A stretch of DNA of 64,000 nucleotides, taken from NCBI RefSeq assembly GCF_004353525.1, contig NZ_CP085524.1:1770142-1834141 (forward strand). The letters run 5' to 3'. The notes under the pieces are model-generated. The model was given only the letters and a program-made list of their open reading frames with translations, was not told the origin of the DNA and did no database searches. Positions 4,598 through 11,553 of this stretch are shown here, piece by piece; the first letter of the stretch is position 1, and each line of letters starts with the position of its first letter. The position numbers and the translations under genes were made by a program. This DNA comes from Zhaonella formicivorans. Its GTDB lineage: Bacteria > Bacillota > DUOV01 > Zhaonellaceae.

Positions 4598-4657
4598 AAA
4601 GCCGCAGGGACAGTCCCCTTGGTTTGATCACAGGGACAGTCCCCTTGGTTTGATCAC
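4598..4657. repeat. dispersed palindromic repeat, two tandem copies
   Basis: Two head-to-tail copies of a unit whose core is the palindrome GGGACAGTCCC followed by CTTGGTTTGATCAC; the first copy also carries AAAGCCGCA in front. The same unit occurs at 7537 and 8868. It resembles REP-type extragenic elements. Confidence 0.8.
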
Positions 4658-4673
4658 CATATTAATTAGCCTC

Positions 4674-7421
4674 TTATTCTGAAACCTTATATCCGGTTTC
4701 TGCAAAAAATTGCTCTAATTTCTGCCTGGTTTCGTCATTTATAGGTTCCTCAACAACTATTTTGATTTCCCGCCTGTCTTTAAATAAACTGGGATTTTTC
4801 TTTACTGGCAAAATGCTTCTAACTTTTTGAAATAGTGCGGATGCGTTAGGTTCCAGATAAATACTGATGGCATATCCTGTTTCCTCTTCCAGCTTGCTCA
4901 GTACCTGTTTATATGGCTCAGCTGCCTGAGGTGTGATAAATTGAACCCTTATGGAGCCCTCAACTAATGATGTTTTATATATTTCTGCCCCTTCAGCCTT
5001 AAGCCTTGTCTTGATATAGTTAAATGCTGCATTAATCTCCATTTTGCCGCCGGTTGTTTTTGGAACTTCCATGATAGCAGGTTGGCTTTCTGTTTCCACT
5101 TCGAGTTTCCATCCTGTCGCCTTATTAAAATCCAGCATTATTCTTTGCCACCGGTGCTGTTCTGGATTACTTGGTGACATTACCTTTATTTTTACTTTAT
5201 TTTCTTCCCGGTAAACTGATGGTTCTTTAAGAAGCGAAACTCCCTCCGGCATTAATTCAACCAACTTTAATTTCAGCGCCTCCAGATTAGTCTCCTGATT
5301 AATCCGCCAGGTCCAACCGGTTTCCTTCAGCAATTCAAGGAGCAGGCCGTTTATTGCTTCCGGTAAAGCTCGCGGAAAGTAAAAATAAATTATCACTTCA
5401 CCGGTCTCAGGATTCATCCCTACTTTATTCAAACCATAATTTTTCAGGGCAGCAATAAATATTTCCCGTGCTTGATTTTGCTCCAAACACAAAAACTTTG
5501 GCTTTGCCAAGCCTGTCAGCACTCTCCATGTATCAAACACCTTAATCCGCAAGTCTTGCAGAGAGGATTCTTCCTGGTTAAATAATAATTCTAACCAGTT
5601 ATTATTAACATTTTCCAGCTGACTTTGTGACAAGGTCCCGCAAATACCAATAATATCTTCCGCTTTTATATATACCTGTTCAGCCTGGCCGGGTATTTCA
5701 ACATTGATCCCATAGGCATCCTGAGAGATGCAATAGGACAAACACGAGTTATTTTCACAGGTAACTGCAATTAACTTGTTTGTCAAATTACCTAAGTTAT
5801 CCATCAGTTCTTTTCTTTTGCTCTGTAAAGCTATTTCCTCTTCAGACAAGGGGACCCAAACATTCTGATAAATTTCCTTAAACAAGCCGCTCTGTTTAAG
5901 TCTTGTCTGCAGCGAACCGGTATCACAACCAATTTTGGCTGCCATTTCATCTAAGTGATACTCTTTGATACCGTTAGAAAGTAAGGTGTTTTTCCAAAAG
6001 GCTACCACATCCCCTTCAGCAGCTGCTTTAGCAATATTCTGCCTTCTCGTATATTGGCCAAATGTAAACTCCAACACTTCTCCATTATTTGGCAGGTAAA
6101 CTGCCAAACGGTTTCTTAGGGCTGCTGCCAAAGTTTCCCTGGCCTCTGCCTGGCCATGGGTTAATATGACTCTTTTCGGTTTGAGGGCTGTTAAAAAACC
6201 AAATATTTCTTGCTGATCGGCATGGGCAGAAAGATTATACTTTTCTACTCTACATTTAACAGTTATCTCCTGCCCGTTTAGCAAAATTCTTTTCTCTTCA
6301 GCCGGCTTGTCCAGTAATTCAATCAACCTTCTCCCAGGGCTTTCTTCATCCTGATAGCCAGTTAATAAAATGGCATTTTTTTCACCGCTTAAGAGTTTTT
6401 CAGCGTAATAGGCGCTGGCTCCGCCAGTTAACATCCCTGAACTGCTGATAAAACATGCAGGTTTTCCTGCCAGGGCTGCTTCTCGCTCATTTTTAACAGG
6501 GTTACCGATAGCCCTGACAGAATCACTGTAAAATGGATGCTGCCCATTATAAACCCTTTTTTGCAAGAATTTTGATAATTGGTTAATATGATTTAAATAT
6601 ACTGTATTTATGCTTCTAACTAACCCGTCAACCCATATTGGAAATTTTTCATTGTCCTTTTGTCTCAAACGGGCTAAACGAAGCAAATATAATATTTCTT
6701 GTGCCCTACCTTGTGCAAAAGCAGGAACCAGAACATGTCCGCCGTCTCGGATCACTTGAGAAATTTTATTTACTAAATTGTTTTCTTCACGTTTACGGTC
6801 CGCATGATGGCGGTCACCATAGGTAGCCTCGGTAATGACAAGATGGGGGGAAAATTTAGGTAATGCCGCCGGCATTATTGTTCTAGTCCCAGATACAGAA
6901 AAATCTCCTGTGAAAAGAACTCTCCCCTCAGTGGTTTCCAACCCGATCATGGCAGCTCCCAGGATATGTCCTGCCCGGAAAAAATGCGCCTTTGTACCGT
7001 CAGGCAACAATACAAAACTTCCCAGGGGTACGGGCCGTAAACAATTCAATGCCTCTTTAACTAATTCCTCATCATAAAGGGGAACTTCTCCCTCTCGCAT
7101 ATCCATCACTTTGAGGCTGTCAAACAAGAGCACACGGGTCAAATCGCATGTGGCAGTTGTAGCGTAAACAGGTGTTCCCGGATAAGCCTGACAGATCAAT
7201 GGCAGGGCGCCAATATGATCAAAGTGGGAATGGGTCAAAAAAATGGCTGTCAGTTTTTGGCCTTTAAGCAGGTCTTGCAGTAATGCAAAATCTGGCAAGG
7301 GACGATCAGGACAAGCCTGTCTCTGACCACAATCCACCAGGTAAGCACTGGCGCCTACTAAGAGCAAGTGAGCTGAAGCCCCTATCTCATCTGCCCCACC
7401 TAATGGTATATATTGCATCAT
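4674..7421 (-). CDS. beta-CASP metallo-beta-lactamase RNase-like protein with repeated C-terminal module
   Basis: About 915 aa. The N-terminal 450 residues are an MBL/beta-CASP nuclease of the CPSF73/Ysh1-like family: LTHSHFDHIG metal motif (68-76 counted from an upstream ATG at 7436), GHILGAAMI, TGDFS, the beta-CASP elements VLVPAFAQGRAQEIL and ISSSGMLTGG, and the last His motif YNLSAHADQQEI / ILTHGQAE. Such enzymes are zinc-dependent RNA endo/5' exonucleases in the cytoplasm. The following 450 residues are unusual: a winged-helix-like stretch near 480-530, then about four units of roughly 60-75 residues, each ending in a helix with ETGW or ETGY followed by a strand. I know no named domain for these; a KH-like RNA-binding fold is possible. 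The start at 7421 is preferred because GAGGTGG lies six bases upstream; an ATG at 7436 lies within that ribosome-binding region. Confidence 0.85.
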   Translation of the reverse strand: MMQYIPLGGADEIGASAHLLLVGASAYLVDCGQRQACPDRPLPDFALLQDLLKGQKLTAIFLTHSHFDHIGALPLICQAYPGTPVYATTATCDLTRVLLFDSLKVMDMREGEVPLYDEELVKEALNCLRPVPLGSFVLLPDGTKAHFFRAGHILGAAMIGLETTEGRVLFTGDFSVSGTRTIMPAALPKFSPHLVITEATYGDRHHADRKREENNLVNKISQVIRDGGHVLVPAFAQGRAQEILYLLRLARLRQKDNEKFPIWVDGLVRSINTVYLNHINQLSKFLQKRVYNGQHPFYSDSVRAIGNPVKNEREAALAGKPACFISSSGMLTGGASAYYAEKLLSGEKNAILLTGYQDEESPGRRLIELLDKPAEEKRILLNGQEITVKCRVEKYNLSAHADQQEIFGFLTALKPKRVILTHGQAEARETLAAALRNRLAVYLPNNGEVLEFTFGQYTRRQNIAKAAAEGDVVAFWKNTLLSNGIKEYHLDEMAAKIGCDTGSLQTRLKQSGLFKEIYQNVWVPLSEEEIALQSKRKELMDNLGNLTNKLIAVTCENNSCLSYCISQDAYGINVEIPGQAEQVYIKAEDIIGICGTLSQSQLENVNNNWLELLFNQEESSLQDLRIKVFDTWRVLTGLAKPKFLCLEQNQAREIFIAALKNYGLNKVGMNPETGEVIIYFYFPRALPEAINGLLLELLKETGWTWRINQETNLEALKLKLVELMPEGVSLLKEPSVYREENKVKIKVMSPSNPEQHRWQRIMLDFNKATGWKLEVETESQPAIMEVPKTTGGKMEINAAFNYIKTRLKAEGAEIYKTSLVEGSIRVQFITPQAAEPYKQVLSKLEEETGYAISIYLEPNASALFQKVRSILPVKKNPSLFKDRREIKIVVEEPINDETRQKLEQFFAETGYKVSE

Positions 7422-7536
7422 ATTATTCCACCTCATTGTAAAATAAGCATACCAATATTATACAATATTTTTTTAGAGTTTTATGATATTTCCCCAGATC
7501 TTGCTACCCACTAAAAAAAGCCCCACCCCGGTTTAA

Positions 7537-7574
7537 GCCGCAGGGACAGTCCCCTTGGTTTAACCCTTGGTTTA
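7537..7574. repeat. dispersed palindromic repeat copy, with partial second copy
   Basis: GCCGCA, then the GGGACAGTCCC core and CTTGGTTTA, followed at once by a truncated CCCTTGGTTTA. It has the same orientation as the copies at 4598 and 8886. Together with the 4598 pair it brackets the beta-CASP gene. Confidence 0.75.
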
Positions 7575-8124: not shown

Positions 8125-8385
8125 TTACGGGTTCTTGAGAGTCTTGTCATGCTCTCCGATATTCCGCAGCAAAATACTGTCCTCGGTGTATTGCCATGTT
8201 AAACGAATATCCATGGTGACACTTGCCTCAAAGATGTTGTCCTGTCCCTGAATCTTCTTAGTGCGGAGGGAAGGATGCCTGGGGTTTTCCATCATTAGCT
8301 CTAGCTTCTTTTTCAAGGCGCGCTTCACTTCTATTGGAAGCTGCTTGACTTTGTCAGCAAAAAGGTCGGAATAGTAAATGTTCAT
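8125..8385 (-). CDS. RelE/ParE-superfamily toxin of a type II toxin-antitoxin system
   Basis: 86 aa, typical for the superfamily. The pattern is a helix-rich N-half (FADKVKQLPIEVKRALKKKLELMMENPRHPSLRTKKIQG) followed by strands with the ParE/RelE-like FEASVTMDIRLTWQY and a C-terminal HDKTLKNP. Family members cleave ribosome-bound mRNA or poison gyrase; the Arg/Tyr set of RelE RNases (R-L-T-W-Q-Y) is partly visible. It overlaps the antitoxin gene by four bases (ATGA), so the two are translationally coupled. Autoregulation by the antitoxin-toxin complex at the promoter before 8660 is expected from the family. Which target it attacks cannot be told from sequence. Confidence 0.85.
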   Translation of the reverse strand: MNIYYSDLFADKVKQLPIEVKRALKKKLELMMENPRHPSLRTKKIQGQDNIFEASVTMDIRLTWQYTEDSILLRNIGEHDKTLKNP

Positions 8386-8660
8386 ATTTCATCCAGTCCC
8401 AGGCCTTTGAACAATTCCTCTTTGCTTTTTGCCGTTTTCACCCGGCCTTCCCGTATTTGTTGCTCCACCTTCTGCTCATCCGCCTGCCATTCCTTAGAAT
8501 AAAACCACATTTGAGCCCGCGGAATAACCTCAACGGGGGTAATAATCAGGCAACCGTCCTTTTCTTCGACTTCCAATTTATCGCCGGGCTTAAGTTTAAG
8601 TTTTTTCACCAGTTCACTAGGAATAGTCACTTGGGATTTTTGTTTTAATTCCACCAACAT
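8382..8660 (-). CDS. AbrB/MazE-fold antitoxin
   Basis: 92 aa. The first 45 residues are a SpoVT-AbrB swapped-hairpin DNA-binding domain: LKQKSQVTIPSELVKKLKLKPGDKLEVEEKDGCLIITPV. The tail from about 50 to 92 is charged and helical (EWQADEQKVEQQIREGRVKTAKSKEELFKGLGLDEI), as expected for the toxin-wrapping part. ATG at 8660 follows GGGGATGAGAAC. It lies immediately upstream of and overlaps the toxin gene. AbrB antitoxins are most often paired with MazF or VapC; pairing with a RelE-fold toxin is also known. The pair may be stabilising a region scarred by mobile elements. Confidence 0.85.
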   Translation of the reverse strand: MLVELKQKSQVTIPSELVKKLKLKPGDKLEVEEKDGCLIITPVEVIPRAQMWFYSKEWQADEQKVEQQIREGRVKTAKSKEELFKGLGLDEI

Positions 8661-8867: not shown

Positions 8868-8937
8868 GACAAAGCCGCAGGGGACAAAGCCGCAGGGACA
8901 GTCCCCTTGGTTTGTTGGTTTGCATCCCCTTGGTTTA
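8868..8937. repeat. dispersed palindromic repeat, one full and two broken copies
   Basis: A broken AAAGCCGCAGGGGA is followed by a full copy (AAAGCCGCA plus the GGGACAGTCCC core plus CTTGGTTT) and then by a truncated CATCCCCTTGGTTTA. This looks like array decay or slippage. The rest of the 8661-8956 gap shows nothing else recognisable. Confidence 0.75.
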
Positions 8938-10306: not shown

Positions 10307-11553
10307 ATGCAAGACATCCTGGAAATATGTTGTGGTCTTGATGTCCACAAGGAAACAGTTGTTGCTTGCCTCTTGAAAGGCAATCTTAGTGGGGAACCGG
10401 TTAAAACTATCCGCACCTTTTCCACCCTTCTTGCCGGGCTAGATGAACTGAAAGTTTGGCTAGAAAATGAGAACTGTCGGCATGTTGCAATGGAAAGCAC
10501 CGGCATCTATTGGCAGCCTGTATATAACGTGTTGGAAGAAGCCTTTGACGGCAGTATGGTTTTGATTGTTGCCAATGCCCGACATATGAAAAATGTACCC
10601 GGTAAAAAGACCGACATGAAAGACGCCGAATGGATAGCCACCCTTTTGCGCGCCGGATTGTTGGAAGGAAGTTTTATTCCCTCCAAACCTATCCGGGAAC
10701 TCCGTAATCTGACCCGGTACCGCAAAAGTATTATCGAAGAGATTGCGTCGCAAAAGAACCGCATCGAAAAACACTTACAAAGCTGCGGCTTTAAGCTCTC
10801 CACCTTCCTCACCGATATCTTCGGCGTATCGGGCCGGGCGATTATGGACCACCTTTGCCGTCACGGGAAAATATCCGCCCGGGAAGTAGAGAATTTTGTA
10901 AAGGGGCGTGCTAAGAATAAGCTCCATGAGATCAAACAGGCGGTCAATGGCAAAATGGATGTTCATCAAAGAGAGTTCCTAAAGCTATTGTTGGGTTGGC
11001 TAGATCAGCATTACGAGCATCTCCGTCAAGTAGAGCAAAACTTAGAAGAAAAACTGGCTCAGTATCAAAGACAACTAGAGCAACTAGACGGCATACCGGG
11101 CATTGATAAAACTGCAGCAGCAGCCATTTTGGCGGAAATCGGAATTGATATGAGTCGTTTTAAAACCGCTGAACACATCTGTTCTTGGGCAGGCTTAACC
11201 CCCGGTAACAATGAAAGTGCAGGAAAAAAAAGTCCACTCGTACCACCAACGGTAACACCTATTTAAAACGGATCCTATGTGAAGTTGCTTGGTGCATCAC
11301 CCGAATACGTCAAAGCTACTTATCATCCTGGTATTGGAAAATCAAACAACGCCGTGGCGCCAAAAAAGCTCTTGTTGCATTAGCCAGAAAAGTTCTCGTA
11401 ATAATATACAACCTGTTAAAAAATGATGCTGATTACGATGAAACATCCTTTGAAAAAGCCAAACAAAAACAGGAAAAGTTTCGAGTTAAAAGGATTATTG
11501 CTGAAGCTAAGAAACTAGGTCTGGAGGTAATAGAACCTCACGAGGTTGCCTAA
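10307..11553 (+). pseudogene. IS110-family DEDD transposase, frameshifted
   Basis: The first frame (10307-11266) encodes an N-terminal RuvC-like DEDD domain: GLDVHKETVVACL (catalytic Asp), AMESTGIYWQP (Glu), KTDMKDAEWIA (two Asp). Next come a coiled-coil middle and the C-terminal Transposase_20 domain (GIPGIDKTAAAAILAEIG, WAGLTPGNNESAGKK). At a run of eight A residues (11224-11231) the frame breaks and stops early. One extra A restores a continuous frame through STRTTNGNTYLKRILCEVAW to TAA at 11553, giving the normal length of about 415 aa. It could be an inactivating indel, a sequencing error in the homopolymer, or slippage that makes a full product. It has a good ribosome binding site (GGAGGAAACTC before ATG). 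It is inserted antisense to the catabolic cluster. Confidence 0.88.

Follow-up and report, generated by a model that had tools for sequence, protein, structure and literature searches.

One gene of the window, the whole stretch of 64,000 nucleotides of Zhaonella formicivorans DNA analysed here, encodes a protein in which a beta-CASP nuclease is followed by a long C-terminal tail, and the locus raises the question of what this tail is and what it could do for the nuclease. The initial annotation had described the tail as a fourfold repeated, possibly KH-like array that might confer binding of RNA or of a partner. Neither Pfam nor NCBIfam has a model for it, which leaves about 270 residues of each such protein without annotation. 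The gene and the parts that precede the tail are:

4674..7436, minus strand: whole gene, 920 aa with an ATG start, stop codon counted in; full-length homologues at 78-92% identity
6066..7418, minus strand: MBL / beta-CASP / RMMBL nuclease core, residues 7-457; Pfam PF00753, PF10996 and PF07521 above cut-offs, and superposition of the model
7215..7232, minus strand: metal-binding motif 2, HSHFDH, residues 69-74; H69, H71, D73 and H74 invariant in 22 relatives
5847..6017, minus strand: helical region, residues 474-530, possibly winged-helix-like; predicted helices 474-486, 495-502 and 506-516, then a strand pair
5631..5789, minus strand: small predicted beta domain, residues 550-602; five predicted strands, common to some relatives only

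The window gene is intact, its full-length homologues being 92, 88, 81 and 78% identical. PF00753, PF10996 and PF07521 each exceed the Pfam gathering score in the window protein, in agreement with the beta-CASP nuclease core proposed at the outset. MBL motifs 1-4 and beta-CASP motifs A, B and C are all intact, motif C being the His of the RNA type, and the residues D35, H69/H71/D73/H74, H157, D178, E203, H405 and H427 are invariant across 22 relatives. Sequence comparison placed the core at about equal distance from aCPSF1, IntS11, CPSF73 and TTHA0252 (181-187 bits), no nearer to aCPSF1 than to the other three, and structure superposition of the predicted core model on CPSF73, aCPSF1 and TTHA0252 gave Z values of 44-47. 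The core thus belongs to the RNA-type beta-CASP nucleases in the CPSF group and is predicted to be active. Thermus TTHA0252 and related bacterial CPSF-type RNases have the same core as the window protein (184.6 bits; Z about 45.8), but TTHA0252, with 431 residues in the PDB, ends after the core and carries no tail.

The helical region gave no Pfam match, and the beta domain between nuclease and tail, which is missing in many relatives, is likewise without a Pfam family match; judged by eye, the sequence of residues 550-602 recalls Sm/SH3-like barrels. The same genome encodes a second CPSF-type beta-CASP protein (L002 / L057, G000:C1:871434-872816, a 587-aa frame), which is 29% identical to the window core and has no KH-like tail, as well as an RNase J-like protein (L003).

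The tail itself divides into four units of two kinds, A and B:

5289..5489, minus strand: tail unit A1, residues 650-716; alpha-beta-beta-alpha-beta, matches the KHb stretch of TIGR03675 and aligns to A2 with hhalign
5091..5288, minus strand: tail unit B1, residues 717-782; aligns to B2 with hhalign and superposes on FttA 76-144 (KHb)
4848..5051, minus strand: tail unit A2, residues 796-863; aligns to A1 with hhalign and superposes on PH1404 78-146 (KHb)
4677..4847, minus strand: tail unit B2, residues 864-920; aligns to B1 with hhalign, predicted alpha-beta-beta-alpha-beta

The four alike unit ends reported in the initial annotation were found at residues 702, 770, 849 and 911, each preceded by the Pro-containing turn described there (residues 687, 754, 835 and 897); the array, said to extend from 5474, is indeed located there, but its start at residue 650 (about 5489) lies slightly upstream. 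Single-sequence self-alignment gave a score of 67 for unit 2 versus 4 (shuffle mean 25) and 41 for unit 2 versus 3, neither of which was reached by any of 1000 shuffles. The score of 39 for unit 1 versus 3 was reached by 4 of 1000 shuffles, those of 1 versus 2 and 3 versus 4 were equalled by 26/1000 and 33/1000, respectively, and unit 1 versus 4 was not significant against 1000 shuffles. When unit profiles built from 24 homologues per unit were compared by hhalign, E values of 7.5e-21 for A1/A2, 2.5e-15 for B1/B2 and about 2e-6 to 2e-5 for the A/B pairs were obtained. All six unit pairs are significant with profiles, each beating the best of 60 column shuffles (28-98 score units for real pairs, at most 13-17 for column-shuffled profiles). 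Type A units usually start with MExN and end with TGW or TGY, and type B units usually have (K)xPS ahead of the second strand. The tail is a duplicated pair of two alternating unit types in the order A1-B1-A2-B2; the fourfold repeat claimed earlier is real and its units are related, but they alternate (ABAB) and are not four equal copies.

Two AlphaFold2 runs, of the full-length protein (pLDDT 83) and of the tail alone (pLDDT 88), both predicted alpha-beta-beta-alpha-beta for each of the four units, reproducing the helix-strand-strand-helix-strand rhythm read from the sequence. The two halves of the tail are joined by a low-confidence linker (~783-795), and the short helix that precedes the GxxG position in KH type II is absent or irregular in the predicted units. 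With a pTM of 0.48 for the tail-alone model, the packing and relative orientation of the units are uncertain, which keeps whole-tail TM-scores low (about 0.2); superposition was carried out unit by unit instead. In a Foldseek search of the PDB, the tail matched most strongly (E=2.9e-7) the entry 2ycb, an archaeal beta-CASP nuclease aCPSF1/FttA with an N-terminal KHa-KHb, followed by FttA 9bct, 2xr1, 3af5 and NusA KH proteins (2xr1, 3af5 and NusA at 3e-5 to 1e-4). The ring-building domains of type III secretion appeared near these KH matches (CdsD, E=6.7e-6). Predicted B1 superposed on FttA KHb (76-144) with 1.9 A over 65 residues (Z 8.7), and predicted A2 on PH1404 KHb (78-146) with 1.9 A over 63 residues (Z 7.8). 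Such unit-level Z values alone are not decisive, because eS7 ribosomal proteins and LarE score similarly.

The units might form a separate alpha-beta-beta-alpha-beta family that converged on the KH topology and resembles aCPSF1 by chance. The unrelated eS7, LarE, PrgH and CdsD show the same topology in fold searches, common arrangements give Z values not far from the 8-9 obtained at the unit level, and the Pfam KH models leave the tails unmatched: none reaches its cut-off on any of 24 tails (one tail hits KH_1 with E=0.11), and the genuine aCPSF1 KH pair is recognised in the control. We nevertheless consider convergence improbable, since a beta-CASP nuclease once more leads the structural matches and a sequence link points to the same protein. 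Weak matches to TIGR03675, the aCPSF1 profile, were seen in 8 of 24 tails, more than to any other family, and in all six tails inspected A1 aligns to one consistent place, TIGR03675 positions about 67-142 (KHb), with E of 0.003-0.02. By hhalign, A1 matched KHb of four solved aCPSF1 proteins with E=1e-4, above all 40 shuffles, and the A1-B1 pair aligned to KHa-KHb in the same order over 112 columns with 16% identity. A2, B1 and B2, compared singly with the aCPSF1 KH domains, stayed within the shuffle range or exceeded it only marginally, and the profiles of the tail and of the type-A unit gave no convincing match among PDB sequences. Scattered Pfam matches of the tail (Carbam_trans_C, SecD-TM1, EF-Ts_N and others) and an NCBIfam SPIN match on unit B2 were all below cut-off and were rejected.

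The KH-like reading of the tail is the best one because the top Foldseek match and the weak TIGR03675 match agree, and we hold it likely, with good confidence, that the window protein tail has a KH-like fold. The array suggested by the initial annotation is consistent with the predicted fold and with a KH-bearing beta-CASP nuclease as top PDB match; the suggestion is weakened by the close scores of secretion-ring modules and by the lack of the GxxG loop that characterises KH domains binding RNA, GxxG being absent at the expected loop in all four window units. GxxG-like letters occur at the loop position only in unit B1 of three related relatives (L053-L055), and they were set aside as KH proof, since they are missing in L052 and L095-L097.

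The archaeal aCPSF1/FttA (MTH1203, PH1404; TIGR03675; KH part PF17214 + PF07650) is likewise a CPSF-type MBL/beta-CASP nuclease with an adjoining KH pair, with ~68 residues in each domain. In aCPSF1/FttA, however, the pair is N-terminal and single and its KHb has GxxG, whereas in the window protein the pair is C-terminal, duplicated and devoid of GxxG. The window protein has no aCPSF1-like N-terminal KHa-KHb pair, its MBL domain beginning at residue 7, and with 292.7 bits against TIGR03675 (curated cut-off 580.2) it falls outside the aCPSF1 equivalog. KH-bearing beta-CASP nucleases have been described as unique to MTH1203 (aCPSF1) and its archaeal orthologues (PMC3095777). A literature search on beta-CASP, KH domains and Firmicutes found no paper with such an architecture among open-access papers, to which it was confined, and is hence weak evidence. 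The earlier statement that no beta-CASP RNase with such a tail is known has to be narrowed in view of the KH domains of aCPSF1/FttA, but it retains its point in that the archaeal pair is single and N-terminal. What appears to be new is the C-terminal, duplicated, GxxG-less KH-like pair on a bacterial nuclease; the union of beta-CASP and KH was already known from archaeal aCPSF1/FttA.

Two further systems share part of this architecture. NusA, an RNA-binding protein of bacteria, carries KH domains in tandem, comparable to the tail (Foldseek E about 8e-5), but its array is not tied to a nuclease, and no sequence link to the tail was found. Type VII CRISPR Cas14 has, as the window protein does, a beta-CASP core with a C-terminal extension; the window protein scored 262.5 bits against NF045584 (Cas14), over the core only and short of the cut-off of 800 bits. 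A Cas14-type adaptor was rejected, as the C-terminal domain of Cas14 resembles Cas10 (PMC10910872) and the window gene is surrounded by ordinary metabolic genes.

Most likely, the window protein is a CPSF-type bacterial RNase whose duplicated, degenerate KH-like C-terminal pair would position the substrate by binding RNA or, alternatively, a partner. The whole explanation, to which we give slightly better than even chances, is a probably active RNA-type beta-CASP metallo-nuclease with four KH-type-II-like domains derived from one duplicated KHa/KHb-like pair. The tail would act as an arm on which several individually weak KH-like domains hold single-stranded RNA and guide it into the active site, paralleling the N-terminal KH pair of aCPSF1/FttA but from the opposite end of the enzyme and without GxxG. 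In archaea, the aCPSF1 KH pair binds U-rich terminator RNA, to which it directs this general nuclease of transcription termination, and is required for termination (PMC8716108). That the tail binds RNA we favour by a little; like KH descent of the fold and substrate positioning by the tail, it is an inference, whereas the repeats, their ABAB order, the predicted fold, the constant linkage to the nuclease and the purifying selection are computed results.

The main rival, which we judge possible but rather unlikely, is that the KH-like tail makes protein contacts and not RNA contacts, by dimerisation or by docking to a partner (RNA polymerase or another RNase), analogous to KH domains without GxxG or to ring-building modules. 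It would suit the lack of GxxG in every window unit and the net charges of the units, which are near zero or negative (-2, 0, -1 and +2, with no net positive charge overall). GxxG is likewise missing from the KHa of aCPSF1, for which no nucleic-acid binding is predicted, yet KHa is an accepted KH domain (PMC3095777). CdsD and PrgH, whose ring-building domains rank high among the Foldseek matches (E 6.7e-6 to 1e-3), point in the same direction: these proteins of the type III secretion inner-membrane ring have repeated small alpha/beta domains like the tail, but they are membrane-ring scaffold proteins and no sequence link to the tail was found. Protein contacts fit less well with the closest match being the KH pair of an RNA-processing nuclease, a KH fragment of which binds RNA (PMC8716108), and with the lack of a conserved neighbour gene as partner candidate, none being present near the nuclease across 24 loci. 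An EamA-type transporter was dismissed as partner, for it is a neighbour in the window and one clade only, which is too little.

If the KH-like reading is true, a scattered bacterial family has the same kind of nuclease core and KH combination, assembled in another way than in archaea, and offers a good test case for the role of degenerate KH domains on a nuclease. A much stronger version, in which these proteins are bacterial factors for RNA 3'-end formation or transcript cleavage that form a lineage of their own, work like aCPSF1/FttA and arose by attachment of a duplicated KH pair to the C-terminus of a CPSF-type nuclease, appears very doubtful to us; such factors may possibly act on nascent or U-rich transcripts.

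The tail was detected in 31 of 398 genomes (17 of 266 genera) sampled from the phylum and also in one Planctomycetes bin, and at the loci read with their flanks it always adjoins a nuclease core or a core remnant. No tail relatives were matched in plasmid records or viral contigs at the sensitivity used. Compared with four close relatives, dN/dS is 0.07-0.23 for the tail and 0.06-0.12 for the core, and the tail is under purifying selection. Decayed copies of the gene are present in G358 and G273 and, as second copies beside an intact one, in G204 and G086; the gene is therefore dispensable in places. The decayed copies in these four genomes comprise core and tail fragments with broken frames (L092 5979-7370, L093 3415-6074, L094 5989-6942 and L037 9957-10388).

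In one complete genome (L046, 8451-8526), nuclease and tail are encoded in two overlapping frames with a stop/start overlap GTGATG, and one base is missing at the junction versus the otherwise near-identical L045. A natural two-subunit form was not accepted for L046, as with this one-base difference a natural split and a sequencing error are indistinguishable, nor for L040, where the split lies beside an assembly gap.

The surroundings of the window gene hold several minor features. An 18-nt repeat, CAGGGACAGTCCCCTTGG, occurs on the plus strand in four copies of one orientation that flank the gene on both sides (window 4605-4622, 4631-4648, 7541-7558 and 8893-8910), and three of the four places have 27 nt, AAGCCGCAGGGACAGTCCCCTTGGTTT, in common. 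The repeat is absent from the relatives' loci, and a search with its 17-nt core found no further copy in the 3.3-Mb genome. Two small genes upstream of the nuclease look, by eye from their translations, like a RelE-type toxin and an AbrB-type antitoxin (window 8125-8660, minus strand), and a transposase-like ORF of 319 aa, of the IS110 type by eye, is located at window 10307-11266 on the plus strand.
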